Source: Sulfuriferula nivalis
Lineage (GTDB): Bacteria > Pseudomonadota > Gammaproteobacteria > Burkholderiales > Sulfuriferulaceae
Assembly (NCBI RefSeq): GCF_009937995.1
Contig: NZ_AP021881.1
Location: 992,001-1,056,000, forward strand
Direction of reading: 5' to 3'
DNA length: 64,000 nucleotides
In this document: positions 20,496 through 43,164 of the stretch, in pieces
How the letters are laid out: each line of letters begins with the position of its first letter
Position numbering within the stretch: the stretch's first letter is position 1
The notes under the pieces: generated by a model
Database searches by the model: none
Told to the model about the DNA's origin: nothing
What the model saw: the letters and a program-made list of their open reading frames with translations, nothing else
Program-made: the position numbers and the translations under genes

Positions 20496-20778
20496 AATCG
20501 ATCCCTCATTACAACAATGGCTCCATTTATATAGTGTTATTTTAGAATGTTAATGCCTGATCTACCCTAAGCGGAAGCTAAGGCTGAGCAACTTGATTGT
20601 TTTCTCGTCGGCCAAAATGGACATCAACGATACTTGAAAAACATAGAGGAAAATGGCCGCTTTGACCGGTTGCGGCACCCTGCACTAATGACCGCTCCAC
20701 CTTCAATACCAGTCATACCATGGGGCTATCTGTGCAACAGACTTGAATGTCGGTTTCTTAAAAATATATACAATAAAA

Positions 20779-23360: not shown

Positions 23361-24617
23361 ATGAAAATGATTAAATTTGACCTTCAAATGAAGGGCGTAA
23401 AAATAACCAGTGTTGAAGAATTGCAAGATAACTTCAGTGCCGATATTTTGCCTATTTTTCAATCAGGGCGATTAGCTAAATGGTTCAAATCGCGGGATAT
23501 GCTAGATCAGGCACTTGCCATCGAAGCCATAGCCAAAGACAGTAGTGAATTACAACAACTCGGCAATATTTGTCGTGCACTGGATCTGGATGATGATGAA
23601 GAAGTATTGCGGTTTTTGTTGGATGATAGAGCCGCTCCTCAAATCACACCTGTTACACCGACAGTTGAAGTTGAAGAAGATACGATAATCATTACAAAGT
23701 CAGGGATAGATTGGAGCGGTCAGGATATGAGTGGTCGTCGTTTTATTGGTGAGGATTTGCGACATGCTAATTTAGCAGGTGCTAATTTAGCAGGTGCCGA
23801 CTTGTCAGGAGCAAATCTGAGCCATTCTAATTTGAAGGGTGCTAATTTAACTGGAACTATAGTGAGTCAGGCAGACTTTACGTCTGCTAATTTGTCAAAT
23901 GCGACTTTGAACTCTTTAAAAGCAGAAGCTGGAGTTTGCTTTATCCAAGCCAATCTTGAAAAAGCAATATTTAACGATGCCATTCTGCATGGTGCGGATT
24001 TTACTGAATCTTGCTTAAATGAGGTCAATTTTACAGGAACTCAATTTACTAACGTGAATTTTACACAAGCCAATTTGAATGCATCTGTTTTGAAAGCAGC
24101 GCATTTTTCAGGGATGATTAACTTGTTTAGAGCGGATTTATCATTTGCTGACTTAACTAATGTCGTGCTGCCATATGATGCTAACTTGGCTGAAATGAAG
24201 CTAACTGGTTCAATTGGATACATAGAAAACTATTTTCTTGGTTTAGACGTGCTAGACACTGAGGATGCCGAGGAAGTGAAAACAGCATTGATGGAAGCCA
24301 CGGAAATGGCAGTAAAAGTCAATTTAGCAGAGCAAAATGTAAATGAACTTGAAAAAAAATTAGCCAATTATGTAGAGTATATGAAAGGGCGCGATATCTT
24401 CGACGGCGAGTCGGGTGAAAGTCTCAAAGAGATCGCCATAAATAAAATGACTACGGCTCTAAGACAGGCAAAAATTGAAAGAGAGGGGATAAGAGCGAAT
24501 GCAGCCAGATTAATGGAGAAAGCTAAATTTATGTTTTCAAACATTAAAGAACCCATGCTCCAGGAAGAAGAGCCGCTTTCGAAGCGAATGCTTCGCTCAT
24601 GGTATGTTAAATTATGA
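23361..24617 (+). CDS. pentapeptide-repeat protein
   Basis: 418 residues. Residues 10-90 form a helical domain (VEELQDNFSADILPIFQSGRLAKWFKSR), of a type seen at the N-terminus of varied bacterial signalling and defence proteins. Residues about 118-280 are pentapeptide repeats of the A(N/D)LxG type (LAGANLAGADLSGANLSHSNL), which fold into a right-handed square beta helix, sometimes mimicking DNA. Residues 300-400 form a coiled-coil-like helical tail. The ribosome binding site AGAGGAAA precedes the start. It is part of the cassette A operon. A scaffold or DNA-mimic role is possible but unproven. Confidence 0.85.
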   Translation: MKMIKFDLQMKGVKITSVEELQDNFSADILPIFQSGRLAKWFKSRDMLDQALAIEAIAKDSSELQQLGNICRALDLDDDEEVLRFLLDDRAAPQITPVTPTVEVEEDTIIITKSGIDWSGQDMSGRRFIGEDLRHANLAGANLAGADLSGANLSHSNLKGANLTGTIVSQADFTSANLSNATLNSLKAEAGVCFIQANLEKAIFNDAILHGADFTESCLNEVNFTGTQFTNVNFTQANLNASVLKAAHFSGMINLFRADLSFADLTNVVLPYDANLAEMKLTGSIGYIENYFLGLDVLDTEDAEEVKTALMEATEMAVKVNLAEQNVNELEKKLANYVEYMKGRDIFDGESGESLKEIAINKMTTALRQAKIEREGIRANAARLMEKAKFMFSNIKEPMLQEEEPLSKRMLRSWYVKL

Positions 24618-24889
24618 TAAATAAAAATAGTTATTTTGACCGTATAGACGTTGTGTCGCCTGCTGGAATAGCAGTTTTAAAACTTTATGATGAGTTAACT
24701 GATACAAACTATATAGTGGAAAAACTTGATACATTGTCTTATGGCGGTGGGGATTTTGAAAAATGGAGTGTATTCATTACTTCAAACTCAAATACCAGAT
24801 ATGAATATCGTAAACGATTTGATACAAAAACAGCAACAGAGGAATATGTTAATGAAGTAAAAAATATGTTGAAAAATATTGAGGCATAA
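24614..24889 (+). CDS. small protein, unknown, cassette A
   Basis: 91-residue protein overlapping the pentapeptide gene by an ATGATAA junction and followed after 14 bases by the AAA+ gene, so it is translated as part of the operon. It appears to form a mixed alpha/beta fold (GGGDFEKWSVFITSNSNTRYEYRKRF, then a C-terminal helix). I do not recognise the family. Tight coupling on both sides suggests it is a component of the same system. Confidence 0.65.
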   Translation: MINKNSYFDRIDVVSPAGIAVLKLYDELTDTNYIVEKLDTLSYGGGDFEKWSVFITSNSNTRYEYRKRFDTKTATEEYVNEVKNMLKNIEA

Positions 24890-24903
24890 AAAGGGGCAAT
24901 GAA

Positions 24904-26412
24904 ATGACGACATCAGCATCAATACAAATAATCAATCATATCCGTAGTTATGTCGAATCCCGTTATCCCATGCTTTATTTGGTGACATCTGAAGATGCTG
25001 TGGCTGACGACATCATCTGCGCACTGACTGAAGGTCGAAAAATCACCGAATGGAATATGGCACTGGGTTTGGTTAACTTCGCGACTAAGCAACCCTATAT
25101 GGAGGATGAATATAAAGATTTATCTGCCGCTTTATTGTGGATGCTGGAACAAGATTTTGAACAGCAGATTATAGTGATTCGGGATGTGCATTTAGGTTTG
25201 CGTGATAACGCGATTGCCGTGGCTAGGCTTAAAGCCTTGGTGATGCAAGTGCTAGGACGAGCGCATACGCATATCACTATTTTCTTAGTGGCTACTCAGG
25301 TTTATATTCCTGTTGAGTTGGAGAAATTTACCACATTATTCGATTTGCCATTGCCTGACGAAATAAGCATTCGTGGCTTAATTGAAGATGAGGCACTCAT
25401 GCTTGATGTGTGTATTGACGAGGAAACGATTAGTCAATTGGCCACGTCATTCCAAGGGCTTACACATTACGAGATTAAGCAATTGCTCAAGCGTAGTTAT
25501 CAAACTGAGGGGGAGATTGGTCGTCAGCATATAGAGCTAATTCATGATGAAAAAGCGCAGATTATCCAAAAAAATGGTGCGCTGGAATTGATTAAGACTA
25601 AAGAAAGTCTGGCGAGTATCGGTGGTTTGAAGAATCTTAAAACCTGGCTAAGACAAAAAGAAAAGATATTAGCGAACTGGTCTGATGCACGTAAATTCGG
25701 TGTAGAAACACCAAAGGGAATTATGGTTGTGGGTATGCCTGGTTGTGGCAAATCACTCACGGCTAAAGCGACTGCGAGCTTATTTAAGCTACCTTTGCTC
25801 AAGCTGGATATGGGTTCCATGATGGGTAAATATGTAGGTGAAAGCGAAGGTAATATGCGCCGCGCGTTAAAAGTGGCGGAAGCGGTTAGCCCATGCGTGC
25901 TATGGGTTGATGAAGTCGAAAAGGCATTTGTCGGCATCGGCAGTCAAGGAGCTGGATCAGAAGTAGCGACACGAATGTTTGGTTATTTCTTAACTTGGAT
26001 GCAGGAAAAAACCAGCCAGGTATTTGTCATCGCCACAGCCAATGACATATCGGCTTTACCACCTGAATTGTTACGTAAAGGCCGTTTTGATGAGATTTTT
26101 TATGTAGATTTCCCTAACGAGATTGAGCGTAAAGACATTTTCAGCCTGCATCTTAAAAAACGCGGCAAACTCAATGAACATACCGACCTTGGGCAACTTG
26201 CGAAAGATACCATGGATTATTCGGGTGCTGACATCGAATCCGTTGTTAAAGATGCGATCGAAAGCGCATTTGTGGAAGGTAAAGCAGAGTTAGATACCGT
26301 GCGTTTGCAAAAAATCATTATCAACACCCAACCATTGGGCGCTGTGATGAAAGACAAGGTAAAAGAATATAAGGATAAATTTGAAAAGATGAAAATCAAA
26401 AAAGCCTCGTGA
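24904..26412 (+). CDS. Ycf46-like AAA+ ATPase
   Basis: 502-residue AAA+ ATPase of the Ycf46 type, known from plastids, cyanobacteria and scattered bacteria. The N-terminal 230 residues form a degenerate AAA-like domain that begins with a helix and [10 protein letters not shown]. The second domain is complete: Walker A GMPGCGKS (277-284), Walker [10 protein letters not shown] (332-340), sensor 1 ATAN (377-380) and Arg finger in RKGRFDE (391-397). Such ATPases remodel proteins as hexamers. It is preceded by AAAAGGGGC and is the last large gene of the cassette A operon. A chaperone or trigger role for the effector upstream is inference. Confidence 0.88.
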
Positions 26413-30525: not shown

Positions 30526-30585
30526 GGTGTAAATTATTACTCAAAAACGTTTCGGAAGTTGAAAAATATGCATTAAGTCAGGTTT

Positions 30586-30744
30586 GTTAAATTGCATGCC
30601 GAATTGAGCTGCTTTGTCTAAATGTTTGCATTAAATATTGATCCGCCTCAAGAAATATAACCCGTTGTGCCAAATGGTCAGTTATCAAATTTGGTGGGTC
30701 AGACTAATATGCTAAAGATGGGTCAATCTGCGGCGCAATTTAAC
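30586..30744 (+). repeat. 159-bp inverted-end element, copy 2
   Basis: Same length and orientation as copy 1, with ends GTTAAATTGC and GCAATTTAAC. It fills most of the gap between the interrupted gene and the AAA+ gene of cassette B. The bases just outside also mirror each other (AGGTTT and AACCT), hinting at insertion into a small palindrome or a longer end sequence. Confidence 0.82.
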
Positions 30745-30845
30745 AACCTAGTGCATTTATTTGAAGATTAGTTTTTAACCCTCATATACAACTAGCTTTG
30801 ATTGTTACTGTGCGATTGTGGATAGCAACATTTGCAATTTTTTAT

Positions 30846-32945
30846 TCAGTAAGATGAAAAGCCAATAGCGCGTTTATTTGCATCTGGCTTAAGGGCGCAT
30901 TCATCCGTTAACCGACTTAGCAAATCAGCGTCATCAGTAATTTTACGCAGCCGAGCCTGTCTACTAACCGTAGCGAAGTCACCAGGTGTCAGCATAGCGA
31001 GTGCAGCTACTGATTTTTGTAATGATTCATCGAGCGGCAAGCCTAGTTTGGCTATAGTGTCAGTAAACATAAGCCAGGCTTGTTCTGGCTTCAGATAATC
31101 AAATCGCAACTTTAAATCAAAACGTCTTAAAGCGGCTGGATCCAGGCTACTCATGAGGTTGGTTGAGGCAATAAATACACCATCAAAACTTTCCATTTGC
31201 GTGAGCATCTCGTTTACTTCACTGATTTCCCATGAACGCTGGGCATTTTTCCGATCTTGCAGATAGGTGTCAGCCTCATCTAGTAGCAACACGGCATTTT
31301 CGATTTCGGCTTCTCGGAACATTTTCGCCATGTTTATCTCAGCTTCACCAAGAAATGGTGAGAGTATGTCAGATGCACGCTTGATGAGCAGAGGACGATC
31401 CATACGGTCAGCAATATATCGGCCGAATGCAGATTTTCCTGTACCCGGCGGACCGTACAAACACAAGCGGCCTCGTTTTTCCGTTACCAAGTTATCGCAA
31501 ATCTCTCCTACATTGCAGTCAGCATTGAGAATTCCTAGGCGATAGTTGGTATCCATGCCTAATGATGCCTTAGGCATACGGGGTAGATAAAGTGCTTCCA
31601 AGGTATTGCCCATCACCTTAGAAATAACCTTATCCATATCCTGTGTTGGAATGGTATGTTTAATGTGTCGTACAACTTTTGCTGCTCGTTCAATGACGGC
31701 GGGCACCAAATTTTCATGTTCTGACATTTGACGTTTCCAGTGCGTGGAAACTGGTAGGTCAATTAAATAATCATCAAGCATACGAGCACGAACACTGCGG
31801 GGAGGTGCATTCATTTCCAGTATGTAGTCAAACCTACGTACGACAGCGGGATCCAGTTGCGGCAAGTTGTTGGTAAGCCAGAAGGAGGGCACTGGGTTGG
31901 TTTCCAATAATCGATTTACCCATGCTTTAGTGCCACTTTGATTGTCTCTTTTACCTGATTTACTAAGTGACTCTTTGAACACATCCTCGATTTCATCGAA
32001 CAGGATCAGCGTGTCATGACGCCGTTCCAGGATGGTTTGCGCTAATCTGAACGCGCGAAACCGTTCTGATCCTTCCAGCGCTTTAGCTTGGCGAGTTTCG
32101 GTGGCTATCTCGTATAGATGATGTCCTGTAACTTCAGCTATCATTCGTGCGTACTCGGTTTTTCCACTGCCAGGAGCACCATAAATAAGTATATTTATCC
32201 CTGTGTTTTTTGCTTGTCCGGCAGCGCCAAGATAGTGCTTGATGGTTGCGGTGTCTTCGGTAAGATGGGAATAATGCTCTGCACCCAGTTTGGCTTTAAA
32301 AGATGGGACGATGTGGTTATGGAATAAACTCAAAGGCTCATTCTGTTCACGCATGAGTTCAGTTGTTAAACCGTGCATGATGACTACTGTGTTTGAAAAG
32401 GTATAAACACTGTCCATATCAAGCCACAGGATACCTGTACGAAATAGGGTGCCTGATTCAGAGAGAGCTGTCCGGACATCAGTTATTCCAATTCCAAGGC
32501 AGATGCTGAATATTTTTTCTATGGACGCTATATTTAGGTTACCCATAGAATCAATAGCTTCTTCAAAATGATCTTCGGTTTTAACAGCGATGGCAAAAAA
32601 GAGAATCAGAATTTCAATATCATTCAGTTTAAGTGCTTGACCTAGCATGCCAAGGTTTTCCCATAGCCGTGATTCCGATTTTGCTTGGGGTGGATGCTTC
32701 TCAATGGTGGCTAAATTTTGACGTAGCTCAGTCAGAATTAAATCGCGGTTGTATGCACGTGGATTATCAACGTAATTGTCCAAACCTAGTTCACGTGCTA
32801 TATCATCAAATCTAAATGCATGTTCATTCAAAAACCTTTTATGCGCTTCAAGTTTTAGAATGATACGTAAGAGCCATAAATGCTTTAGCTCTTTATTTAA
32901 GTTGTCAGTAAAGGTTGATTTATTTTTTTGAATATCGAGTTTCAT
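30846..32945 (-). CDS. double-domain AAA+ ATPase
   Basis: 699 residues from the ATG at 32945 (AAGGA 8 bases upstream; the frame is open to 32984 without a site). An N-terminal helical region of about 230 residues precedes two CDC48-like AAA modules. In the longer-frame numbering they carry Walker A GAPGSGKT (269-276) with Walker B LILFDEIED, and Walker A GPPGTGKS (511-518) with LLLDEAD. Both modules keep the Arg-containing segment (VVRRFDY, ALRRFDL). It probably acts as a hexameric unfoldase or remodeller. It lies beside the FtsZ-like gene in the same direction, with its own copy of the cassette B operator. Confidence 0.9.
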   Translation of the reverse strand: MKLDIQKNKSTFTDNLNKELKHLWLLRIILKLEAHKRFLNEHAFRFDDIARELGLDNYVDNPRAYNRDLILTELRQNLATIEKHPPQAKSESRLWENLGMLGQALKLNDIEILILFFAIAVKTEDHFEEAIDSMGNLNIASIEKIFSICLGIGITDVRTALSESGTLFRTGILWLDMDSVYTFSNTVVIMHGLTTELMREQNEPLSLFHNHIVPSFKAKLGAEHYSHLTEDTATIKHYLGAAGQAKNTGINILIYGAPGSGKTEYARMIAEVTGHHLYEIATETRQAKALEGSERFRAFRLAQTILERRHDTLILFDEIEDVFKESLSKSGKRDNQSGTKAWVNRLLETNPVPSFWLTNNLPQLDPAVVRRFDYILEMNAPPRSVRARMLDDYLIDLPVSTHWKRQMSEHENLVPAVIERAAKVVRHIKHTIPTQDMDKVISKVMGNTLEALYLPRMPKASLGMDTNYRLGILNADCNVGEICDNLVTEKRGRLCLYGPPGTGKSAFGRYIADRMDRPLLIKRASDILSPFLGEAEINMAKMFREAEIENAVLLLDEADTYLQDRKNAQRSWEISEVNEMLTQMESFDGVFIASTNLMSSLDPAALRRFDLKLRFDYLKPEQAWLMFTDTIAKLGLPLDESLQKSVAALAMLTPGDFATVSRQARLRKITDDADLLSRLTDECALKPDANKRAIGFSSY

Positions 32946-32987
32946 AATCGTGTCCTTGATAAGTTTTGGGTAATGATCAGGCACACA

Positions 32988-33006
32988 TGCGACATTTTGT
33001 GTCGTA
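32988..33006. promoter_or_regulatory. cassette B operator, site 1 (AAA+ promoter)
   Basis: TGCGACA-N5-TGTCGTA, 43 bp before the AAA+ ATPase start. One base from a perfect palindrome. The same site with the same 5-bp spacer recurs at 34081, 34150 and 38486. Confidence 0.65.
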
Positions 33007-33087
33007 TTAAATGCGTTACGAATCCTAAGATTTATATCCGAGTCATTTATTAGCTATAGTGTTTCATTTAATTTGCAGATAATAGCC

Positions 33088-34026
33088 TCAATTCTCATCT
33101 GAAATACCACTTAACATGATTGTTACTCTGAAATCATGATTGATTTCTGGATTAAATATCGCACACCAAAACATGACCGTATCTGGTGGAAGTTGCGTTC
33201 GAAAGACGTTAAAACCATGACAGATTATTGGCATGATGGGATGATTCTGGTTGTTTATTTCAAAAGCAATCAGTGCGCTTGAGGCGAGTGGTAATTGACG
33301 TTGAGTGAGCAGTGGATGATCAATTGCTCGTTGTATTGCTGTTTCGATACTATTCTCTCCCGTTGCTGATCCATATCCAAAAGCAGTATTCCCATCGTTG
33401 CTCATGAAACTAGCCACATCCGCGAAATCAATACCGACGATACCAGGCTTTTCACTGGTATTTATGATGCATTGATAAAATTGAGCAAAGGCTAAAGATG
33501 CATGCTTAAGCAGAGGTACAGTACGGTGATTTTTATCTGCTGTGTTCGCAAATGTCTCATTGGATATTTGGAAAACACCATTAACATGAGGAGTGAGCGT
33601 TTTGACGCCATTTAATGCTATCTCTTTATGTTTTTCGCCTTCAAAATTGAAAGGCATAATGGCAACTGCTAGCCCAGCAATATTGTGATTTTGTAGAATT
33701 TCAGCAATGTTGGATGAAATGCTCGTTCCAGTTACGCCCCCCATTCCAGCAACAATAAACACTATATCAAGATCACTTACAGCATCAATAATTTGATGTA
33801 TGTTGGTAATGGATAGTGTCGTGTTTGGAATAGTTTGGTTAGCTTGATTAGCGCCAACTAAAAGTTTTATGTCCGCTACTGCATCATGTAAAGCCGTAGG
33901 GTCGGTATCAATAGCAATGGTGCGATGAATATAGGGTAACGATTTGGCGTTGTCTGTAAGAACGTTACTTCCAGCGCCACCCACAGCAATGACGCCAAAT
34001 TTGGTGTCCCATGTCGATTTATCCAT
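33088..34026 (-). CDS. FtsZ-like tubulin-family GTPase
   Basis: 312-residue protein clearly homologous to FtsZ along its whole core. The nucleotide loop T1 reads AVGGAGSN (14-21). The tubulin signature reads GMGGVTGTS (94-102), where FtsZ has GMGGGTGTG. AIMPFNFEG (122-130) matches the FtsZ PFxxEG strand. The T7 synergy loop reads GIDFADV (198-204), keeping the two Asp residues (D200, D203) with Asn replaced by Gly, followed by SFMSNDGNTAFGYGSATGEN. It lacks the C-terminal linker and the conserved peptide that binds FtsA/ZipA. So it may bind GTP and polymerise but is unlikely to serve as the cell-division FtsZ. It sits between two operator copies beside a double AAA+ ATPase. Confidence 0.9.
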   Translation of the reverse strand: MDKSTWDTKFGVIAVGGAGSNVLTDNAKSLPYIHRTIAIDTDPTALHDAVADIKLLVGANQANQTIPNTTLSITNIHQIIDAVSDLDIVFIVAGMGGVTGTSISSNIAEILQNHNIAGLAVAIMPFNFEGEKHKEIALNGVKTLTPHVNGVFQISNETFANTADKNHRTVPLLKHASLAFAQFYQCIINTSEKPGIVGIDFADVASFMSNDGNTAFGYGSATGENSIETAIQRAIDHPLLTQRQLPLASSALIAFEINNQNHPIMPIICHGFNVFRTQLPPDTVMFWCAIFNPEINHDFRVTIMLSGISDEN

Positions 34027-34080
34027 TTTTCTTAATCAAGTATTCTTCGGAAAATAGCGATAAAGCAGCATAATCACCTC

Positions 34081-34099
34081 AGCGACGAAATGTGTCGTA
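34081..34099. promoter_or_regulatory. cassette B operator, site 2 (FtsZ-like promoter)
   Basis: AGCGACG-N5-TGTCGTA, 55 bp before the FtsZ-like gene start. It departs from the consensus TGCGACA-N5-TGTCGCA at three positions but keeps the spacing and the GCGAC/GTCG cores. Confidence 0.55.
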
Positions 34100-34149
34100 A
34101 TGGATTCAAAAAGTCTGATGTTTAAGGAAATTATTGTTTATGTAAAAAG

Positions 34150-34168
34150 TGCGACACAATATGTCGCA
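34150..34168. promoter_or_regulatory. cassette B operator, site 3 (DUF2779-WYL promoter)
   Basis: Perfect palindrome TGCGACA-CAATA-TGTCGCA, 57 bp before the DUF2779 start in the divergent gap. This is the best copy of the four and probably defines the consensus. The operon it precedes encodes the WYL protein that is the likely binder. Confidence 0.7.
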
Positions 34169-34224
34169 TGCGTGCTTACAATAGAGTTAGTTTGTTTAAT
34201 CTAGTAATTCTTAACGAGGAAGTT

Positions 34225-35724
34225 ATGCGCACATTCTCAAAATCCAAGCTGCTCGCTTTACGACAATGTCCAAAACGGTTGTGGCTGGAAATCAATCGTC
34301 CTGATCTACGTGAGGATTCGGATGCAACTGAAGCCAGTTTTCAGATTGGATTCCAGGTCGGGGATATTGCTCAGCAAATATATGATCCGGATGGTTGTGG
34401 TGCGCTAATTGATATTCAGAGCGAAGGATTTAAGCGTGCATTTGAACGCAGCGCTGAATTACTGAATATTGCGCAACCCATTTTTGAGGCTGGTTTTTCA
34501 GCAGGTGGAGCGATGGCATTCGCCGATGTCATGTTACCTATACAAAATGAGGGCAAGCAAGCCTGGCGCATGGTGGAAGTTAAATCCTCTACTAGCGTTA
34601 AAGATTACCATCGCGACGATGTGGCGGTGCAAGCGTTTGTAACGCAGTCTGCAGGTGTGCCGTTGAAGTCTATTGCATTGGCGCACATTGACAGTTCCTG
34701 GGTTTATCCTGGCGACGATAATTATCACGGCCTTTTAAAAGAAAATGACCTTACAGCGGAAGCCTTTGCGCGGACAGAGGAAGTTCAAGGTTGGATAACC
34801 CAGGCGCAAAATATCGTTGCTGAAACTGATGAACCAGATATTAAAATTGGTAATCATTGCGATACGCCTTATGAGTGTGGCTTCTTCGCATATTGCAGTC
34901 AAAATGAGCCGAAACCTGAATACCCAATTAATTGGTTGCCACGTTTTCCTTCGGCCAAGAAGCGTGAACTGGCGGCTCAAGGGTTGTACGATATGACAGA
35001 AATACCCGATGACTTGCTTAATGATAAGCAACAACGAGTAAAAGATTACACGGTATCCAATACAGTATATTTTGATGCTGAAGGCGCATTGGCGGATCTG
35101 GCTGAGTATCCGCTTCCAGCCTATTTTCTTGATTTTGAGACTATTCAGTTTGCAGTACCTATCTGGAAAGGCACACGACCATATCAGCAGATTACCTTCC
35201 AGTTTAGCTTGCACACATTAACTGAATCAGGCGAGTTGGAACATAGTGACTTCCTTGATCTGTCTGGTAATAACCCATCCGAGGCATTTGCGTATGCGTT
35301 AATCGCAGCTTGTGGTCAGCAAGGCCCCGTTTATGTCTATAACGCAGGCTTTGAAATGGCACGTATCCGTGAATTGGCTGAACGTTATCCATCGATAAGT
35401 GTATCGCTGCTAGCCATTAACGAGCGTGTGGTTGATCTGCTGCCTATTGCACGTGAGCGTTATTATCACCCTAGTCAGCAAGGTAGCTGGAGCATTAAAA
35501 AAGTACTGCCTGCCGTAGTGCCTGAATTACGTTATGACGCGCTCGATGGTGTGCAAGATGGTGGCATGGCGATGGATGCTTTTCTTGAAGCTATTCATCC
35601 GAATACGAATACTGAACGCAAAGCTCAAGTCAAGCAGCAGCTTTTAGCGTATTGCAAGCTCGATACTTACGCCATGGTGCGCCTGTGGCAGGTATTTGCT
35701 GGTCGCACAGATATGAGGTTATAG
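34225..35724 (+). CDS. DUF2779 protein: Cas4-like nuclease plus DEDD exonuclease-like domain
   Basis: 499 residues from the ATG at 34225 (CGAGGA 5 bases upstream). The N-terminal half is Cas4-like: Cys15 (RQCPKRLW), Asp101, the VEVKSS core (E118, K120) and Cys212, Cys218, Cys224 (HCDTPYECGFFAYC), which would hold an iron-sulphur cluster around a PD-(D/E)XK nuclease. The C-terminal half (DUF2779) begins AYFLDFET (D303, E305) and has further acidic motifs near YNAGFE and YCKLDTYAM, resembling a DEDD 3'-5' exonuclease. Both active sites look complete. It is coupled to the WYL gene (3-base gap). A nucleic-acid processing role is expected. Confidence 0.85.
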   Translation: MRTFSKSKLLALRQCPKRLWLEINRPDLREDSDATEASFQIGFQVGDIAQQIYDPDGCGALIDIQSEGFKRAFERSAELLNIAQPIFEAGFSAGGAMAFADVMLPIQNEGKQAWRMVEVKSSTSVKDYHRDDVAVQAFVTQSAGVPLKSIALAHIDSSWVYPGDDNYHGLLKENDLTAEAFARTEEVQGWITQAQNIVAETDEPDIKIGNHCDTPYECGFFAYCSQNEPKPEYPINWLPRFPSAKKRELAAQGLYDMTEIPDDLLNDKQQRVKDYTVSNTVYFDAEGALADLAEYPLPAYFLDFETIQFAVPIWKGTRPYQQITFQFSLHTLTESGELEHSDFLDLSGNNPSEAFAYALIAACGQQGPVYVYNAGFEMARIRELAERYPSISVSLLAINERVVDLLPIARERYYHPSQQGSWSIKKVLPAVVPELRYDALDGVQDGGMAMDAFLEAIHPNTNTERKAQVKQQLLAYCKLDTYAMVRLWQVFAGRTDMRL

Positions 35725-35727
35725 ACT

Positions 35728-36678
35728 ATGCCAAAACGTCCAAATTCCGTTGAAGAACTCAATCTAACGCATGCAATATTACAGCGCATTCCCAAGGGAC
35801 GTACGGTTACTGCATCGGAGTTGCGTCAGCAACTGGCTGATGCAGGTATTAATCGTGACTTGCGCACCCTGCAGCGCCAACTGGATATGCTTAGCGAAAA
35901 CTATGACATTGATCGTGATGACAGCAGCAAGCCGTATCGTTACAAATGGAAAGAATTTGCCAAAGGGCTAAGCCTAGTTGGCCTTAGCCCACAGGAGTCG
36001 TTGTTGCTTACCCTTGCTGAACAGCATTTGAACAGCCTGTTGCCCGCCAAACTAATGAAATCAATGCAAGGCTTCTTTACCCAGGCACGCAGCCAGCTAG
36101 GAGATAAAAGTTCGACTAAACGTGAGCGGGAATGGCTGGAGAAAGTGCGTGTAGTCAGCACCACCCAACCGTTGCTGCCACCCAAGATTGACCCGCTAGT
36201 ATTTGAACAGGTCAGCAATGCGCTCTACGCAAATCAGTGGCTGGAAGTAGACTACAAAAATGCCGCTGGCAAACGCACCGAGACTCGCGTCATGCCGCTG
36301 GGCTTGGCGCAACAGGGTCAACGCATGTACCTCGTTTGTCGATTTGATGGTTATGATAACGAGCGTAGCCTTGCGTTGAATCGCATCATCTCCGCAAAGG
36401 TTTCAACGCTAACGTTTGAACGCCCCAAAGACTTCGATCTTAAGCAATATGACGACGATGGCCGATTTGGTTATGGTAATGGCCAACACATTAAGCTGAG
36501 TTTCCGTATTGATAAGGATGCGGGACTGCATTTGCTTGAATCGCCTCTGTCGCTGGATCAGCGGGTAGTGGAGTTGGATGATGCCTACGAGATTACTGCG
36601 ACGGTGGTGGATAGTGAGATGCTGGAGTGGTGGTTGCGGGGATTTGGGGATTCAGTAAGTATGGTAACTAAAAATTAA
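35728..36678 (+). CDS. WYL-domain transcriptional regulator
   Basis: 316 residues. An N-terminal winged helix (VTASELRQQLADAGINRDLRTLQRQL) is followed by a WYL domain (ANQWLEVDYKNAAGKRTETRVMPLGLAQQGQRMYLVCRF) and a WCX end (LEWWLRGFGDSVSMV). It differs in layout from the BrxR-like regulator of cassette A. As the only DNA-binding regulator in cassette B, it is the best candidate to bind the palindrome repeated at four promoters, including that of its own operon. Confidence 0.88.
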   Translation: MPKRPNSVEELNLTHAILQRIPKGRTVTASELRQQLADAGINRDLRTLQRQLDMLSENYDIDRDDSSKPYRYKWKEFAKGLSLVGLSPQESLLLTLAEQHLNSLLPAKLMKSMQGFFTQARSQLGDKSSTKREREWLEKVRVVSTTQPLLPPKIDPLVFEQVSNALYANQWLEVDYKNAAGKRTETRVMPLGLAQQGQRMYLVCRFDGYDNERSLALNRIISAKVSTLTFERPKDFDLKQYDDDGRFGYGNGQHIKLSFRIDKDAGLHLLESPLSLDQRVVELDDAYEITATVVDSEMLEWWLRGFGDSVSMVTKN

Positions 36679-36692
36679 AGGACGGATTGTCA

Positions 36693-37241
36693 ATGAAATA
36701 TCAAAAAATTATAGATAAAGTTAAAAGTGGCACTATGTCTCGAGACGACCTTGATAAATTAAAACAAAATGCCGAAGAAAAAGTTGCAAAAGGTGATCTG
36801 GATGCGCAAGCAGTTATTTTGGCCATACAAATAGCAAAACCATCTGATTCTTATATTTTGTTTATGGGCTTCTGCCCAAATGCCGAGTTTGAAAATCGAC
36901 TTGATATTGAATGGAAAGATAAGGGAATTTGTCGCTTTGATTATTTAGAAAGCGAATCTCAGTTAGAACGATTTAACACTATTCGCACTGGTGACTTGGT
37001 CATTTTGAAAAAAATTCAGCAGTTTGGTAAAACCATGAGATTGTTTGGGCATGGGCGAGTGAAAAGTATTGCATATGATGAAAATAACATTCGCTATCTT
37101 GTTATGGACTGGTCAGATCAGGCAGAAATAATTGAAGTTCCGCTTATGGGTTGCAACTCCACCGTTGACATTAAATCAATGAAAGCTGTTTATGATGAGA
37201 TGCCAGACGAGTTTTATTCTTGGTTGGGGTTGGGTAAATAA
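36693..37241 (+). CDS. hypothetical protein, 182 aa
   Basis: 182 residues from the ATG at 36693; AAAGGA lies 12 bases upstream. The first 50 residues are charged helices; the rest contains a small beta domain (TGDLVILKKIQQFGKTMRLFGHGRVKSI) that recalls EVE/PUA-like folds, which bind modified bases. This is a weak likeness. It follows the WYL gene by 14 bases and is in the same operon. Adenine-rich codon use contrasts with the WYL gene before it. Confidence 0.65.
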   Translation: MKYQKIIDKVKSGTMSRDDLDKLKQNAEEKVAKGDLDAQAVILAIQIAKPSDSYILFMGFCPNAEFENRLDIEWKDKGICRFDYLESESQLERFNTIRTGDLVILKKIQQFGKTMRLFGHGRVKSIAYDENNIRYLVMDWSDQAEIIEVPLMGCNSTVDIKSMKAVYDEMPDEFYSWLGLGK

Positions 37242-37305
37242 AAGATGTAAGATTATTCAGATTGACCATTTTGTAATGGTGCTCAAGTAATGACGAGGGA
37301 TATTC

Positions 37306-37815
37306 ATGATTTACAACCACATTGATGATGTAACAGTAACCGCCCAGTTCGCATGGGAAAATGATCTGTACTATCGCTACCGACTAGAAATAGTCCTAAA
37401 CGATGCCGCACCCACAGGTAAAACAGCCTGTGTAGTGATGCAAAACCCGAGTCGTGCTGGGGAGAACGTAGCTGACAAGTCCGTTCAATTCATGGAGAAA
37501 GTGGTATTCAAAAAGGAACTGGCGGAATTCGCAGGTGTGCGCCGGCTGATAGTAGTTAATCAGTTTGCATATATCCAGACTAATGATTTTCAGGGTTTGC
37601 CACACGAAATTGGCGCGCTCAATGATGCAACTATTAAGGACGCTCTGAATGAGTCTGATATTGTCATTTTAGGTTGGGGTGCGGCCAATCGTTTTACAGC
37701 ACGCAAATCCTATGTGCTTGACCTGCTTGCTGACATGCCTCAGAAGGCGATTTACCAGACTAGGATGCATCCGTCACGTGGTCGGTATGATGGTTTTATT
37801 CAGCCATATCTATAA
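37306..37815 (+). CDS. DUF1643 family protein
   Basis: 169 residues of the DUF1643 family, small proteins common in mobile DNA and phages. Recognisable segments are CVVMQNPSRAGENVADKSV, RLIVVNQFAYIQT and DIVILGWGAANR, ending in MHPSRGRY. The alternating beta/alpha pattern suggests a nucleoside- or DNA-glycosylase-like fold, but the function is not established. It is probably the last gene of the DUF2779 operon. Confidence 0.8.
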   Translation: MIYNHIDDVTVTAQFAWENDLYYRYRLEIVLNDAAPTGKTACVVMQNPSRAGENVADKSVQFMEKVVFKKELAEFAGVRRLIVVNQFAYIQTNDFQGLPHEIGALNDATIKDALNESDIVILGWGAANRFTARKSYVLDLLADMPQKAIYQTRMHPSRGRYDGFIQPYL

Positions 37816-37884
37816 TAAGCATACCCTTACTTTTAACATTGTTATCCCACTTTCCAAAGTCAACAATGGGGCAGACAGGGGGCA

Positions 37885-38442
37885 CTATATGCGTGGGAAC
37901 GGTTGTTCCCACGTCTGCTCATCAATTTTAATTTCCACGCAAACTGAGCCAATGCGAAGCAAATCAAGCCAGTCCAATCCGCAATGATCGTAAAGACAGT
38001 GATACAGATAACAATGCCACTCACCAACAAAATATGCAGGACAGTCACAATGATTTATATTCGTTATACCAAATCCCCATTCTTGATCAGTGTGGATACA
38101 GTCAAAAATATCCTCATGTAGCTCCATAAGGATGTTGTCATCGTTTTCTTCATATTCATAGTCGCTTTCATGTAAATAAAAGGTAATGACAAACTCAAGA
38201 TTGAAATCTTGTATCCAGTCGTGATGATTTTTAACTCGTTCCTGCAGTTGTGTGTATTTGGTTTTTAAAATGGGCAAGTATTGCTTTTCAAGCAAAGTGA
38301 GGTGTTTATTTAATGCTTGTAGTTGACTACGTTCTGTTTCATTAAGCGATTGATAGTCGGTGAAATATGCTTCGGCATTTTGCCTATGCATATAACGTGC
38401 TTTTAGATTTTCAGAATAGTCTAGTTTGTGGTCGAATTTCAT
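37885..38442 (-). CDS. hypothetical protein, 185 aa
   Basis: 185 residues, acidic. The N-terminal 80 residues are helical with coiled-coil character (NETERSQLQALNKHLTLLEKQYLPILKTKY). The second half is rich in Trp, Tyr, His and Cys (NINHCDCPAYFVGEWHCYLYHCLYDHCGLDW), which could bind a metal. I do not recognise it. It is divergent from the histone-deacetylase-like gene, and the shared gap contains a copy of the cassette B operator. Confidence 0.65.
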   Translation of the reverse strand: MKFDHKLDYSENLKARYMHRQNAEAYFTDYQSLNETERSQLQALNKHLTLLEKQYLPILKTKYTQLQERVKNHHDWIQDFNLEFVITFYLHESDYEYEENDDNILMELHEDIFDCIHTDQEWGFGITNINHCDCPAYFVGEWHCYLYHCLYDHCGLDWLDLLRIGSVCVEIKIDEQTWEQPFPRI

Positions 38443-38485
38443 GATGTTCTGGTTTTTAATCGAAAGTACTAAGTTTATTTACGCA

Positions 38486-38504
38486 TGCGTCACATAGTGT
38501 CGTA
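38486..38504. promoter_or_regulatory. cassette B operator, site 4
   Basis: TGCGTCA-CATAG-TGTCGTA in the 111-bp divergent gap between the 185-residue gene and the deacetylase-like gene. It keeps the length and spacing of the other three sites with two mismatches from the perfect copy. Confidence 0.6.
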
Positions 38505-38553
38505 TCAATGGGATTAAATACACCTTATTGGCAATGAATATAGGGCGAACAAA

Positions 38554-39456
38554 GTGGAACCAGTCTCGCAACTTACTGAATGTGTGAACGATGTACCTGT
38601 GTTTTTTACGCCTAGGATGGTTGCCCATTTCAGTAGTTCTTCACCCAGTGCCGCCAAGCCTGAAAAGGTGATGGATGCTTGGTTAAGATTGGATCTACCG
38701 ATTGCTGTTATTGAGCCTGAACCAGTGACTGTTGATCAACTTAAGCAGGCACATAATCCAGATTATGTGGATCAAATTTTGGCATGCGAAATTAAAAATG
38801 GTTTTGGCAATAAATTACCCGAGGTAGCAGCTACTTTGCTTTATACAACAGGTGCTATGCTGGCGGCGGCACGAGAAGCTATTCGTAACGGGAAAGTAGC
38901 TGTTGCACCTTGCTCAGGATTTCACCATGCAAAGTATGCATCCGCGTTTGGGTATTGCACGTTCAATGGACTGGTAGTGACGGCGATGATTTTGAAGGTG
39001 AGTGGATTAGCCAACAAAGTGGGTATCCTGGACTTTGATATGCATTATGGGGATGGCACGGATAACTTAATTGAACAGCATCAATTGAAATGGATAGAAC
39101 ACTATACGGCTGGACGTGAATATGAAGCTACACATCAAACCCAGGAATTCTTGTTGAGTGTCTCTGAGAAAATTACAAAGATGCAAGACTGCGACATTAT
39201 CCTGTACCAGGCTGGAGCAGACCCGCATATTAAAGATCCATTAGGTGGGTTTTTAACAACTGAGCAACTAAGGATACGAGACAAGATTGTATTTGAAACG
39301 GCAAATGCGCTTGGCATACCCATCGCGTGGAATCTGGCAGGTGGTTATCAAGTTGCTGACGATGGCAGCATTCCAGAAGTATTGACCATTCATAGCAACA
39401 CTATGCTTGAATGTATTAGGGTATATGTATGTAAATATAAGCAAGTGCACCAATAG
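38554..39456 (+). CDS. histone deacetylase-fold amidohydrolase
   Basis: 300-residue member of the arginase/deacetylase superfamily. All catalytic residues are present: the His pair H124-H125 in GFHHAKYAS, zinc ligands D162 and H164 in LDFDMHYGDG, the third zinc ligand D223 in QAGADPH, and the catalytic Tyr265 in LAGGYQ. Bacterial relatives deacetylate acetylated amines such as polyamines or lysine side chains, or simple amides. It starts 50 bases after a cassette B operator and leads a three-gene run. Its substrate in this context is unknown. Confidence 0.85.
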   Translation: MEPVSQLTECVNDVPVFFTPRMVAHFSSSSPSAAKPEKVMDAWLRLDLPIAVIEPEPVTVDQLKQAHNPDYVDQILACEIKNGFGNKLPEVAATLLYTTGAMLAAAREAIRNGKVAVAPCSGFHHAKYASAFGYCTFNGLVVTAMILKVSGLANKVGILDFDMHYGDGTDNLIEQHQLKWIEHYTAGREYEATHQTQEFLLSVSEKITKMQDCDIILYQAGADPHIKDPLGGFLTTEQLRIRDKIVFETANALGIPIAWNLAGGYQVADDGSIPEVLTIHSNTMLECIRVYVCKYKQVHQ

Positions 39457-39495
39457 TTGGTTAATTTTTTATTGATTTTTTGAAGTGGAGTAGCT

Positions 39496-39858
39496 ATGAA
39501 AGTTTATCTGGGTGATAGCAGCAGTAGTAGTAAATTGATTAGTTTGGATTGCAATATTGTAGGAAACAAAGTCTACCAAGGTAATCACACAAGCAGTAGT
39601 TATCTGCTATGTAATGTTAGAGAAGGTAAGGTCTATAAGGGGGATAGCGGCAGTAGTAGCAATATGCTGTTTAATATCAGAGATGATAAAGTTTACAAAG
39701 GCGAGAGCGGAAGTAGCAGTAATATGCTGTGCAATATTAAAGGCAATAAGGTCTATAAAGGTGATAGTAGTAGCAGTAGCAACATACTTTTTAATACTTC
39801 AGAGAGATTTAGCACCGAACAATTGGCCGCCATTTTATTTGCGATTGAATTAATTTGA
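39496..39858 (+). CDS. protein of 20-residue KVYxGDSxSSS repeats
   Basis: 120 residues made almost entirely of five tandem units, of about 20 residues after a first unit of 23, with consensus KVYKGDSSSSSNMLFNI. Each unit looks like a beta hairpin, so the protein may form a small beta-propeller or beta-solenoid. The last 16 residues form a hydrophobic helix (TEQLAAILFAIELI). SD GAAGTGGAG precedes the ATG. I know of similar repeats in other bacteria but no function. It lies between the deacetylase-like and nucleotidase genes. Confidence 0.75.
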   Translation: MKVYLGDSSSSSKLISLDCNIVGNKVYQGNHTSSSYLLCNVREGKVYKGDSGSSSNMLFNIRDDKVYKGESGSSSNMLCNIKGNKVYKGDSSSSSNILFNTSERFSTEQLAAILFAIELI

Positions 39859-39863
39859 AAACC

Positions 39864-40793
39864 ATGACGGATTCAAGTTCGGATGGTATGTCTTTTAGCC
39901 ATAAAAAGCTAATAGTCGCCATTTCCTCTCGTGCTCTTTTTAATCTTGATGAGAGCCATGCTGTTTTTGAAAAGGACGGTGTGGAAGCATATTGCAGATA
40001 CCAAATTCAGCATGAGGATATACCGCTTGAAACTGGTGTGGCATTTAGTCTGGTGAGGAAATTGCTGGCATTAAATGAACGTGATCCTGAAAATCCGCGT
40101 GTTGAAGTGATTTTATTATCTCGTAATAGCGCAGATACTGGCTTGCGTATATTCAATTCGATAAAGCATCATGGGTTGAATATCAGTCGCGCTGCTTTTA
40201 CACGGGGCGCAAGTACACATCCGTACATTTCAGCATTCGGTGCTCAGCTGTTTCTTTCTGCCGAAGCTAATGATGTGCGTAAGACGCTAGAGGCGGGATT
40301 TGCTGCGGCGACGATTTTACCTTCTGCTTCTGCAGCTGTTTCTGAAGTGGATCCATCGCAGTTGCGTATCGCCTTTGACGGGGATGCTGTCTTGTTCTCA
40401 GATGAGTCAGAACGTATTTATAAGCAGGATGGATTGGAGGCATTTGAAAGTAATGAAACATTAGCCGCGAAGCAGCCTTTGCCTGGTGGGCCATTTAAAA
40501 ATTTTCTTGCATTGTTGCATCAGCTTCAATTGGAATTTCCAGCAGATACAGCACCTATCCGCACAGCCTTAATCACGGCGCGTGGTGCACCTGCCCATGA
40601 ACGGGTTATTCGTACATTGCGCGCCTGGAATATCCGTATAGATGAAGCCTTTTTCTTACGCGGAAAAGACAAAGGGGAGTTTCTGAAAGCATTCAGAGCC
40701 GATATTTTCTTTGATGACCATCAAAAGCACTGCGAATCCGCGCGCCAGCACGTCGCCACTGGGCACGTTCCGCATGGTGTGGCTAATGAATAG
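39864..40793 (+). CDS. 5'-nucleotidase, cN-I type
   Basis: 309 residues, Pfam 5-nucleotidase family (cytosolic type I-like, HAD-related). Diagnostic segments are IAISSRALFNLDESHAVFE near the N-terminus, VILLSRNSADTGLRIFNS, and IAFDGDAVLFSDESERIY in the middle, followed by ARGAPAHERVIRTLRAW. It hydrolyses nucleoside 5'-monophosphates. Start uncertain: an ATG at 39864 or a TTG at 39855 overlapping the repeat gene stop. It ends cassette B, 111 bases before the third 159-bp element. A nucleotide-depleting role is conceivable. Confidence 0.85.
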   Translation: MTDSSSDGMSFSHKKLIVAISSRALFNLDESHAVFEKDGVEAYCRYQIQHEDIPLETGVAFSLVRKLLALNERDPENPRVEVILLSRNSADTGLRIFNSIKHHGLNISRAAFTRGASTHPYISAFGAQLFLSAEANDVRKTLEAGFAAATILPSASAAVSEVDPSQLRIAFDGDAVLFSDESERIYKQDGLEAFESNETLAAKQPLPGGPFKNFLALLHQLQLEFPADTAPIRTALITARGAPAHERVIRTLRAWNIRIDEAFFLRGKDKGEFLKAFRADIFFDDHQKHCESARQHVATGHVPHGVANE

Positions 40794-40904
40794 CTAAGTT
40801 ATTTAGGAAAACATTATCATTGACTATTCATCAAAAAATGGACACTTAGAGTGTCATCAATTCACTGCCTACCAAACACGCATGGGAACAGCTGGTGGTG
40901 ATGT

Positions 40905-41063
40905 GTTAAATTCTATTCCGAATTGAGTCGCTTTGTCTGAATGTTTGCATGAAATATTGACCCGCCTCAAGAAATACAACCCGTTGTGCCAAATGGTCAA
41001 TTATCAAATTTGGTGGGTCAGACTTAAATGCAAAGGATGGGTCAATCTGCGGCGCAATTTAAC
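40905..41063 (+). repeat. 159-bp inverted-end element, copy 3
   Basis: Third copy, same length and orientation. Its left end reads GTTAAATTCTATTCCG, slightly damaged relative to copies 1 and 2, and its right end GCAATTTAAC is intact. It separates cassettes B and C. Confidence 0.82.
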
Positions 41064-41631
41064 ATTGGATGGTTATTTTCAATTAATCCTAGCGCAATCC
41101 CTTGGCTAGCCAAGCAGAACGTAAGTCAGAAAACAGTCAGCTAAACGGAATACCATTAGATTGTAGCGATTCTTTAATATTCTTTGCACGTCGATGAGGA
41201 AACCATTGAAGAAATGCTTAGTGTGATTATAAAGGCTGAAAAAGCAGCGCACGGAAGATCAGGCAATTGGTTTTCAATTGGTGTCAAGATTCAAGTAACT
41301 TTGCTGCATGAGTTCAGATTATCTGAATAACTGCTCTTCGCCGTATTGAGAACTTTTATTTCAGGTGGCTTATCTGATTGCTTATGGCACGTAGCGTCTA
41401 TAGCTCACTATATTAAGCACAGATGTGGCCTTTGGATGCTTACTGCGATGGAATAAATTTTCTGTGCAATGATTGCCCAAGCAGGTTAGACTTAATCAGC
41501 GTGCTTGGACGCAGAAATGTTGGTGCGTCGAAAAGGTATGGTTGCCAATAAATAACGATATAGCTTTAAAAATTTAGTATTGCTGAAAAATTGGCAAGTT
41601 TCTGGAATTCCTATATGGCCATCCTAAGCTA
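41064..41631. other. 568-bp gap before cassette C with a possible gene remnant
   Basis: No complete gene. A plus-strand frame at 41184-41330 without a start reads like a protein end (HVDEETIEEMLSVIIKAEKA, then NWFSIGVKIQVTLLHEF) and may be the last part of a lost gene. The final 100 bases are AT-rich and probably hold the promoter of the MORC-like gene. No palindrome shared with the other cassettes was found. Confidence 0.4.
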
Positions 41632-43143
41632 ATGAACACTTCTGCTCAAGCAACTGCTTCCAATATGATTACCCACCCTCTCGAGGAAAACCTTGATATT
41701 GTTGACCCAAATGCTTCCAGCATGGTCGAGGCTCTTCGAGATATCGGATACTCACTAGAATCTGCGGTTGCAGACGTCATTGATAACTCTATTACTGCCA
41801 CTGCAACTCGAATAGATATACGATTTGGCTGGGAAGCTGGAGGTGCGCCATGGCTAGCTATTATTGACAATGGTTACGGAATGTCCGAATCTGAACTTGT
41901 CGAAGCGATGCGACCTGGCGGGAAAGATCCTCATGAATTCAGAGGCCCCAATGATCTGGGACGATTTGGATTGGGCCTGAAAACCGCATCATTTTCGCAA
42001 TGTCGGAAAGTGACTGTAGTTACTACGTCAAATAAGACTCTGTTGGCAAGACAATGGGATCTTGATCTGGTGAGAGCAAGGAATAAATGGGTGCTAAAAA
42101 CTCCAACCTCGTTGGAGCTTGAAGCTTTACCAGGGTTGTCAATGCTCGGGGTGAAAGGGACGATGGTGCTCTGGCAAGTACTTGATCGGCTTGATCTAGG
42201 GAATGCTCCTGAGAAGGTGCATCAAGTCATGAACGAAAGGGTTGCTTCAATTTGTGAACATGTCGCACTCGTCTTTCATAGATTTATTTCAGGGGAACCT
42301 AAATATCCAAAGGTGGTAATTGCGGTTAACAATAATCCAATCGAAGCTTTCGATCCATTTAATGCGAAGCATCCAGCAACGATGCATCTGGGAGAGGAGC
42401 CCTTGGATATAGAAAATGAAACTGTAACCTTCAGACCATATATTCTTCCTCATCATAGCAGGGTAAGCGCTGAAGAGTACGAGCGCCTCGGGGGAAGTGA
42501 AGGTTATCTGCGCGGGCAGGGGTTCTACATTTACCGTAATCGCCGACTAATTATCCACGGCACATGGTTCCGAATGGCACGACAGGATGAGATGACAAAG
42601 CTGGCCAGAGTGCAAGTAGATATACCGAATACTTTGGATCACCTTTGGACAATCGATGTAAGAAAATCCCGTGCCAAACCTCCAGAAGCAGTCAAGAAAC
42701 GTCTTCGTTCAATTTTGGATCGCATTCGTGATACAGCCAAGCGACCATATAACCATCGTGGTACCAAATCTATAAGCTTACATGGTGAGCCCATTTGGCA
42801 ACGCCTTTACCATAATGAACATGTTAGTTACCAGCCTAATAACAAACATGCGATTCTGGGAGAGTTCAGGTCTGATTTGCCAGCAGAAATGCGAATGAAA
42901 TTCGATGGGATTCTGTTTGTGATTGGCAAGTCAATTCCATTTGCTGCGATATTTAATGATATGGCAACTAGGCCAAAAGAAACCGATTCAAATACTGATA
43001 CTGCAGAGGCACTCGAAAAACTGGCAAACCTTCTATTTGAAGATATGGTCTCTATCAATCCTCAGTATGTGTCTAAAATGATGAGTAGCATTGAACCATT
43101 TGCCTCTAATCCAGATTTTATTTCCGCTTACATAAAGCGCTAA
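41632..43143 (+). CDS. MORC/MutL-like GHKL ATPase
   Basis: 503-residue ATPase with a GHKL (Hsp90/MutL/kinase-type) domain: N box SAVADVIDNSITATATRID, G1 box IIDNGYGMS, and G2 box GRFGLGLKTASFSQ. A MutL-like S5 domain follows (RGQGFYIYRNRRLIIHGTWF, with the catalytic-type Lys/Arg region VDVRKSRAKPPE). The C-terminal 100 residues are helical. Prokaryotic MORC-like ATPases of this form were described in restriction-type operons with Z1, PD-(D/E)XK and AIPR genes, which is exactly the order here. It probably clamps DNA in an ATP-dependent way. Confidence 0.88.
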   Translation: MNTSAQATASNMITHPLEENLDIVDPNASSMVEALRDIGYSLESAVADVIDNSITATATRIDIRFGWEAGGAPWLAIIDNGYGMSESELVEAMRPGGKDPHEFRGPNDLGRFGLGLKTASFSQCRKVTVVTTSNKTLLARQWDLDLVRARNKWVLKTPTSLELEALPGLSMLGVKGTMVLWQVLDRLDLGNAPEKVHQVMNERVASICEHVALVFHRFISGEPKYPKVVIAVNNNPIEAFDPFNAKHPATMHLGEEPLDIENETVTFRPYILPHHSRVSAEEYERLGGSEGYLRGQGFYIYRNRRLIIHGTWFRMARQDEMTKLARVQVDIPNTLDHLWTIDVRKSRAKPPEAVKKRLRSILDRIRDTAKRPYNHRGTKSISLHGEPIWQRLYHNEHVSYQPNNKHAILGEFRSDLPAEMRMKFDGILFVIGKSIPFAAIFNDMATRPKETDSNTDTAEALEKLANLLFEDMVSINPQYVSKMMSSIEPFASNPDFISAYIKR

Positions 43144-43164
43144 AGCATATAAGGAGTTTACCAA

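Follow-up and report, generated by a model that had tools for sequence, protein, structure and literature searches.

Genes with tubulin domains occur in GAP1-N2 systems, and rare FtsZ/tubulin cell-division effector domains in MoxR-vWA systems, as set out in the sections of Kaur et al. 2020 (PMC7159879) on these predicted conflict systems. Other divergent FtsZ relatives, FtsZl1 and FtsZl2, were found by gene context and carry either a coiled coil or an extra C-terminal region of about 300 amino acids (aa), according to the passages on them in Makarova and Koonin 2010 (PMC2875224). Here, we describe a cassette within a 64,000-nt stretch of the Sulfuriferula nivalis genome (contig NZ_AP021881.1, positions 992,001 to 1,056,000), in which an FtsZ-like gene lies directly upstream of, and on the same strand as, a gene for a tandem AAA+ ATPase, with genes for a predicted DUF2779 nuclease and a WYL regulator alongside. 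The whole stretch is referred to as the window and plain coordinates refer to it, whereas those marked C1 are coordinates in the genome.

The cassette is like the GAP1-N2 and MoxR-vWA systems in pairing a tubulin-superfamily protein with an NTPase in a predicted conflict system (PMC7159879, in part), but differs in that the NTPase is a tandem Cdc48-like AAA+ protein encoded with WYL and DUF2779 genes, and none of the ten window proteins scanned matches a GAP1, vWA or MoxR partner in Pfam or PADLOC. The window protein also has neither of the additional regions of FtsZl1 and FtsZl2. The original prediction held that no described defence system is built on such a pair, and this stands in part: a full-text literature search, with subscription papers and preprints outside its scope, found no paper pairing FtsZ with the AAA+/WYL/DUF2779 set, and FtsZ is not named in the main text of either DefensePredictor (PMC13092281) or a BREX survey (PMC12839542); however, tubulin and FtsZ proteins had already been predicted in AAA+/GTPase conflict systems (PMC7159879, same sections). 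The association is best filed as real and unusual, and as a putative variant within the predicted AAA+/tubulin-type conflict systems.

The window protein is, from its sequence, a divergent FtsZ. Matches to PF00091 (Tubulin/FtsZ GTPase, 70.5 bits) and PF12327 (FtsZ_C, 28.5 bits) both exceed the Pfam cut-offs and cover the 312-aa protein up to residue 308, all of the best 50 among 51 matches in a PDB sequence search bear the name FtsZ, and FtsZ folds come out on top in Foldseek with the predicted structure, whose GTPase half is fairly confident and whose C-terminal half has pLDDT below 50. It shares with FtsZ the fold, the motif order and the T1 and T7 aspartates, but scores far below the cut-off of the NCBIfam FtsZ equivalog TIGR00065 (152.4 vs 295.2 bits) and lies outside the division gene cluster. 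The T3 loop is shortened, T4 is changed (GMGGVTGTS), T7 reads GIDFADV, with Gly replacing Asn and both Asp kept (GxDxxD vs NxDxxD), and the C-terminal tail peptide is missing, the end of the protein coinciding with that of the C-terminal domain. A motif check bore out all three changes named in the original prediction (GGVTGTS in T4, Gly for Asn in T7, no C-terminal tail), and its broader picture, an atypical FtsZ next to the gene for a tandem AAA+ protein within mobile, defence-like surroundings, is likewise supported. We rejected the possibility that this is the ordinary chromosomal ftsZ, as the genome's own gene is at a separate site (C1:2801244-2801720) and is far closer to other FtsZs; in total the genome has one ordinary and two FtsZ-like genes. 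TubZ, the phage and plasmid tubulin, has membership of the tubulin superfamily and a place on mobile DNA in common with the window protein, which is nevertheless closest to FtsZ and has no PHROG match, and this identity was rejected also. No match to the FtsZ-like protein was seen in a PADLOC scan.

The AAA+ protein is 712 aa long from a GTG start; the 699 residues reported previously are those read from an in-frame internal ATG. It shares two AAA domains with Cdc48/VCP, its best solved relatives in a PDB sequence search, and the Walker A lysines and Walker B Asp-Glu are invariant across eight aligned relatives, but against the CDC48 subfamily model TIGR01243 it scores 71.5 bits, below the cut-off of 802.65. 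It matches phrog_10401 over its full length (394.9 bits), and a dN of 0.0024 with a dS of 0.031 shows purifying selection on the gene between the two copies of the cassette in this genome. A genome scan gave at least 494 relatives, the best 80 of which were kept. Separately, the AAA+ gene was recognised in 80 out of 90 loci; within 7 kb of it there is a WYL gene in 47 of these, a DUF2779 gene in 23 and a Sir2-like cluster in 9. The flanks of many of these loci are short, 46 having 2.5 kb on both sides, and the Sir2-like label was given by reading, with Pfam support for one gene (L155). The gene is a member of a widespread Cdc48-like tandem family, whose members often have a WYL regulator and a DUF2779 nuclease in their vicinity and in most cases no FtsZ. 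The IetAS system was considered and rejected: the AAA+ protein resembles IetA over residues 504-688, to which the similarity is confined (123.2 bits vs a cut-off of 510), it differs in having two AAA domains, and PADLOC found no IetS protease among the ten window proteins scanned. Other PADLOC systems gave partial matches to the cassette and were rejected.

Strong FtsZ-profile matches occur near the AAA+ gene in 9 of 121 loci from six genomes, these being the window genome (two loci), a Rhodoferax antarcticus plasmid (L037), a Thauera metagenome-assembled genome (MAG; L053 and L165), betaproteobacterium MS502-89 (L068), a Halothiobacillaceae MAG (L090) and a Burkholderiales genome, G502 (L178 and L194). 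A seventh case is a Thiodictyon plasmid (L155), in which the AAA+ gene is in two pieces around an IS607-type insertion and adjoined by the FtsZ-like gene; there (L155 5854-7973) the FtsZ-like gene keeps the C-terminal peptide DIPAFLRR and is followed by a Sir2 gene. A weak case comes from a Geobacter MAG (L119), whose degenerate FtsZ-like gene owes its FtsZ kinship to a score of 21.7 bits, with no Pfam match and an AlphaFold model of pLDDT 40.8, and a tentative one from an Alcaligenaceae MAG (L123; 12.0 bits, the FtsZ C-terminal half only, no Pfam match). The pair seen in the window does recur elsewhere, so that the prediction stands up to its own proviso that a lack of conservation in other genomes would tell against it, but FtsZ as a fixed partner of the AAA+ protein was rejected, most AAA+ loci being without it. 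The notion that every gene adjoining the AAA+ is a hidden FtsZ was unsupported by a sensitive search of 606 upstream open reading frames (ORFs), and a match at L066 (15.5 bits) was set aside as false, being by eye a ThiF-like Rossmann protein. Plasmid searches with the L053, L090 and Rhodoferax FtsZ-like proteins gave no new pair among the matches listed, and a scan of viral contigs with five FtsZ-like proteins gave one relative among 23 pattern matches. Besides their FtsZ-like genes, the window genome, G369 (L053), G370 (L090), G502 and G786 (L123) each have an ordinary ftsZ at a separate site, and in G785 (L119) a fragment of one was found; for Rhodoferax and Thiodictyon the check covered plasmid sequence only. 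The Rhodoferax protein starts MNRRKLFQLLG and the Thiodictyon frame has MKRRIFLQGLG upstream of its annotated start, and both N-termini may be Tat-like.

Extra FtsZ genes are rare. FtsZ_C was found in 390 of 398 Burkholderiales genomes, by a census blind to GTPase-only copies, and four have two matches: G452 has two division clusters, G643 apparently one gene split over two contigs, G740 an ectopic gene, and G502 the gene beside the AAA+. Ectopic FtsZ genes thus number two, one of them beside the AAA+. The AAA+ gene itself is present at E 1e-100 or better in 34 of the 398, including the centre genome G369, and 2 of the 30 fetched loci have FtsZ-like genes (G369 itself and G502). Given how rare ectopic FtsZ is, its recurrence next to a single AAA+ family is far greater than would be expected. 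At the G740 locus (L208, 3279-5732 and 6747-7964) the ectopic FtsZ has all motifs intact and lies beside a SIR2-domain-like gene, named by reading, without this AAA+ gene.

That recurrence bears on an account in which the AAA+/WYL/nuclease module is the working unit and the FtsZ copies are decaying passengers acquired by chance. Such cargo would be in keeping with the many AAA+ loci without FtsZ, with the degenerate state and differing lengths of the copies, and with the variable slot beside the AAA+ gene. However, the FtsZ-like genes still have long open frames, with 24-56% identity to ordinary FtsZ, all five full-length copies have lost the same T7 residue but retain both Asp, and the repeated occurrence next to one family exceeds what the rarity of ectopic FtsZ would lead one to expect; we consider chance carriage quite unlikely. 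The FtsZ-like/AAA+ pairing is beyond chance, as a second cassette copy with different flanks has an FtsZ-like gene of identical sequence and the pair recurs in other genomes.

The five full-length copies – those of the window, Rhodoferax (L037), L068, Thiodictyon (L155) and G502 (L194) – share a distinctive pattern of residues. Asn207 of T7 is changed in all five (G, D, S, G, S) and kept in 41 of 41 other FtsZs, namely 37 ordinary ones and four more that include the ectopic, AAA+-unlinked L161 and L208 (L157 and L161 served as controls outside the 37-row conservation set), whereas Asp209 and Asp212 are kept in all five. In KpFtsZ a metal at T7 is coordinated by the side chain of Asn207 (PMC10333351, in part). 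All five copies depart from FtsZ at four of its 83 near-invariant columns (Thr102, to V/I; Val188; Asn207; Gly256), against about 0.6 expected from each copy's share of changed columns; Gly256 is not kept in two of the four further FtsZs either. All seven FtsZ-like proteins have a hydrophobic residue (V, I or L) at position 102, which immediately precedes the T4 loop and is Thr in 36 of the 37 ordinary FtsZs. Of 27 nucleotide-face columns, 14 are kept in the window protein, 15 in L037 and 14 each in L068 and L194, while the GTPase-only copies keep 17 (L090) and 22 (L053), with at least 25 in each of the 37 ordinary FtsZs. The C-terminal peptide is kept only in the Thiodictyon relative.

These residues also bear on whether the protein could form a filament of its own, separate from host FtsZ and leaving it untouched, that polymerizes with GTP and scaffolds or senses for the AAA+ and nucleases. 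The window protein retains the FtsZ fold and several nucleotide motifs, and tubulin-domain proteins are precedented in predicted conflict systems (PMC7159879, in part). The T3 loop, however, is shortened or lost in four of the five full-length copies, and with two copies GTPase-only and another without glycine motifs the set is ill-suited to a conserved filament, which we therefore regard as improbable.

At least two separate captures of ordinary FtsZ are favoured by trees of these proteins. L068 is 49-52% and L155 55-56% identical to ordinary FtsZs, and the G502 protein is closest to the FtsZ of its own genome (43-44%), which is what a need to fit the host filament would predict. With 28% identity, the window and Rhodoferax proteins are both too divergent to place, so that the suggestion that clustering with ordinary FtsZ would tell against the prediction has a divided answer: some relatives do cluster there, apparently as captured copies, and the window protein has no assignable position. 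The trees omitted several near-duplicate rows and the two GTPase-only copies; those testing L068, L155 and L194 also omitted the window and Rhodoferax rows, which have the longest branches, and in such a tree the starred branches force three label changes. Similarity to the window protein was the basis on which the 27 class FtsZs were picked, and two over-long frames (L017 and L026) were left out of all FtsZ sets. With the Thiodictyon row at its annotated length, as in the final tree and the later motif counts, a single clade of L068 and L155 was rejected (p 0.031), as was one of L068, L155 and L194 (p 0.040); in the earlier alignments and trees that row was without 35-40 start residues, and the corresponding values were p 0.0006 and p 0.061. 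Weighing against separate captures, with the trimmed row neither one clade of all five full-length copies (p 0.156) nor the pairs L068 with L194 (p 0.218) and L155 with L194 (p 0.306) were rejected. The FtsZ-like gene is the fastest-changing part of the cassette, the window protein being 29% and 21% identical to those of L037 and L053, where the DUF2779 proteins are 64% and 62% identical (41% at L090).

Because the T7 Asp residues are kept, the Asn is lost and the nucleotide face is worn, a subunit that caps or poisons filaments is suggested. We tentatively propose – as a reading with a reasonable chance of being right, although short of an even one – a mobile, WYL-regulated, conflict-type cassette in which a Cdc48-like AAA+ protein accompanies a captured, altered and GTPase-defective FtsZ that acts on the host Z-ring. 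The FtsZ derivative would still dock through its T7 face onto host FtsZ, where it may support neither normal GTP turnover nor normal onward growth; the AAA+ protein would keep it monomeric or pull it off filaments, and once released it would cap or poison Z-ring filaments so that division halts. The WYL protein and the nucleases would add regulation and a further line of attack, against foreign nucleic acid. None of the other readings fits the evidence better than poisoning of host division, a role also offered in the original prediction, and the arrangement in the window, where the FtsZ-like gene immediately precedes the AAA+ gene on a shared strand, also counts in its favour.

Several observations weigh against this proposal. 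Asn207 is not the sole common change, Thr102, Val188 and Gly256 being altered in all five as well, and T7 columns overall are kept at just 3-6 of 8. The Thiodictyon protein keeps 26 of the 27 nucleotide-face columns together with the C-terminal peptide, the L053 and L090 copies consist of the GTPase half only and the L119 copy has lost the glycine motifs, so that these three are without the T7 face, and FtsZ is absent from most AAA+ loci. Purifying selection on the window FtsZ-like gene is unmeasurable, its two copies being identical.

The main competing account is that the captured FtsZ is bait: it would mimic host FtsZ, phage inhibitors would bind it, and the AAA+ protein with its nuclease partners would read this out and fire, with no function in division needed, in the manner of a guarded decoy. 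Phages attack FtsZ through T7 Gp0.4 and T5 Hdi (PMC10714956, in part) and through P1 Icd, whose predicted site includes N207, D209 and D212 (PMC11897509, in part), and separate captures, lost GTPase motifs and the far greater divergence of the FtsZ-like genes than of their neighbours would all suit a decoy. But if Icd needs N207, the loss of that residue in all five weakens bait for Icd, and resistance to Hdi and Gp0.4 maps (F268) to the C-terminal half, which is missing from the GTPase-only copies. We view the decoy as unlikely, if less so than chance carriage or a separate filament; GTPase-only and degenerate copies fit neither it nor poisoning perfectly. A broader proposal, which we hold to be doubtful, would have mobile AAA+ conflict islands repeatedly domesticate host FtsZ, turning it into a filament cap (or bait) for the Z-ring that is one-sided, defective in turnover and checked by a Cdc48-like unfoldase; tubulin and remodeller would then form a bacterial switch coupling immunity to division arrest, with one variant fused to a DNA-binding FtsK-gamma domain. 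Such a domain is at the N-terminus of the G502 FtsZ-like protein (39.7 bits, cut-off 30.6); a protein in the corresponding slot of L040 scored 25.2 bits, below the cut-off, and was rejected as FtsK-gamma.

Were a captured FtsZ to act on the host division ring or to substitute for it, cell division would be tied to a mobile AAA+ conflict system through parts taken from the division machine. That copies seem to have been captured more than once and share an alteration at one key position is suggestive of a tool or sensor with cell division as its target. Phages gain from blocking FtsZ (PMC10714956, in part), which makes it contested ground; by capturing host FtsZ repeatedly, bacteria would be taking their own part in the contest. 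The copies are also a natural set of FtsZ variants with the same T7 residue changed in each, and could provide material for studying the capping or poisoning of FtsZ assembly.

The cassette (Table 1) appears to be mobile, because it has 161-nt direct repeats at its flanks and the AAA+ gene is absent from 17 of the 18 genomes examined in the family, the exception being the window's own. The repeats have short inverted ends, and of 11 matches in the genome two belong to a single copy, which an insertion next to the second cassette has cut in half. Within the window the repeat is also at 20336-20497 and 51260-51431(-), a spacing of about 10.3 kb that marks out three near-equal island segments.

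Table 1. Features of the cassette in the window
Feature	Position	Strand	Details
161-nt repeat, left flank	30585-30745	+	starts GTTAAATT, finishes AATTTAAC
Tandem AAA+ ATPase	30846-32984	-	Cdc48/VCP-like by sequence; two PF00004 stretches
FtsZ-like gene	33088-34026	-	open ORF, 312 aa; Pfam and motif reading
DUF2779 protein	34168-35724	+	predicted nuclease; PF11074 142.7 bits; Cas4 and RNase_H_2 matches below cut-off
WYL/WCX regulator	35728-36678	+	PF13280 and PF25583 above cut-off
Segment not common to both copies	36652-37290		alignment gap between copies
184-aa ORF	36687-37241	+	no Pfam match
DUF1643 protein	37306-37815	+	passenger; PF07799 62.4 bits
185-aa protein	37885-38442	-	weak relative at Geobacter L119 (25% over 161 residues, E 2e-9)
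Histone-deacetylase-fold protein	38554-39456	+	PF00850 109.8 bits; 44% over 285 residues to L119
6-fold beta-flower protein	39496-39858	+	passenger at cassette end; Pfam
5'-nucleotidase	39855-40793	+	passenger at cassette end; Pfam
161-nt repeat, right flank	40904-41064	+	direct orientation; 91% identical

The DUF2779 and WYL genes are divergent from, and upstream of, the FtsZ-like/AAA+ pair. The second cassette copy is at approximately C1 1842358-1854100 with different flanks, and window 30659-36651 and 37291-40792 align to it at 98.8% and 98.6%. At the segment not common to both, the second copy has a 739-aa GmrSD-type (DUF262) gene (L004:10826-13045, GmrSD_N 72.8 bits) that is missing from the window copy and has a relative of 28% identity in the Halothiobacillaceae locus. 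The FtsZ-like, 185-aa, deacetylase-fold and beta-flower genes have no base differences between the copies, and silent differences make up 15 of 19 in the AAA+ gene, 12 of 17 in DUF2779 and 29 of 33 in WYL. Comparison of L004 with window 35000-37800 gives dS 0.14 for WYL, 0.26 for DUF1643 and 0 for other genes; this mosaic divergence points to a third version as the source of a replacement in the second cassette copy or the window. Inserted in the repeat at one end of that cassette copy are a tyrosine recombinase (L004 19211-19957) and an IS91-like transposase (L005 106-1236), both assigned by reading.

Genes of the deacetylase-fold cluster are also near the AAA+ at L052 and L057, and at L119 (8947-16929) the degenerate FtsZ-like gene, the AAA+ gene, the 185-aa relative, and the deacetylase-fold, KptA-like (by reading) and Sir2-like genes stand in a row. 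Elsewhere in the window, anti-phage genes of MZA-like type lie at 41632-46816, where the matches to MzaB (345.9 bits) and MzaC (582.1 bits) fall short of the NCBIfam cut-offs and MzaD is matched in PADLOC, and 23361-26412, within the neighbouring repeat-bounded segment, encodes a pentapeptide-repeat-like protein with a single-AAA ATPase (PF00004, 104 bits) after it.
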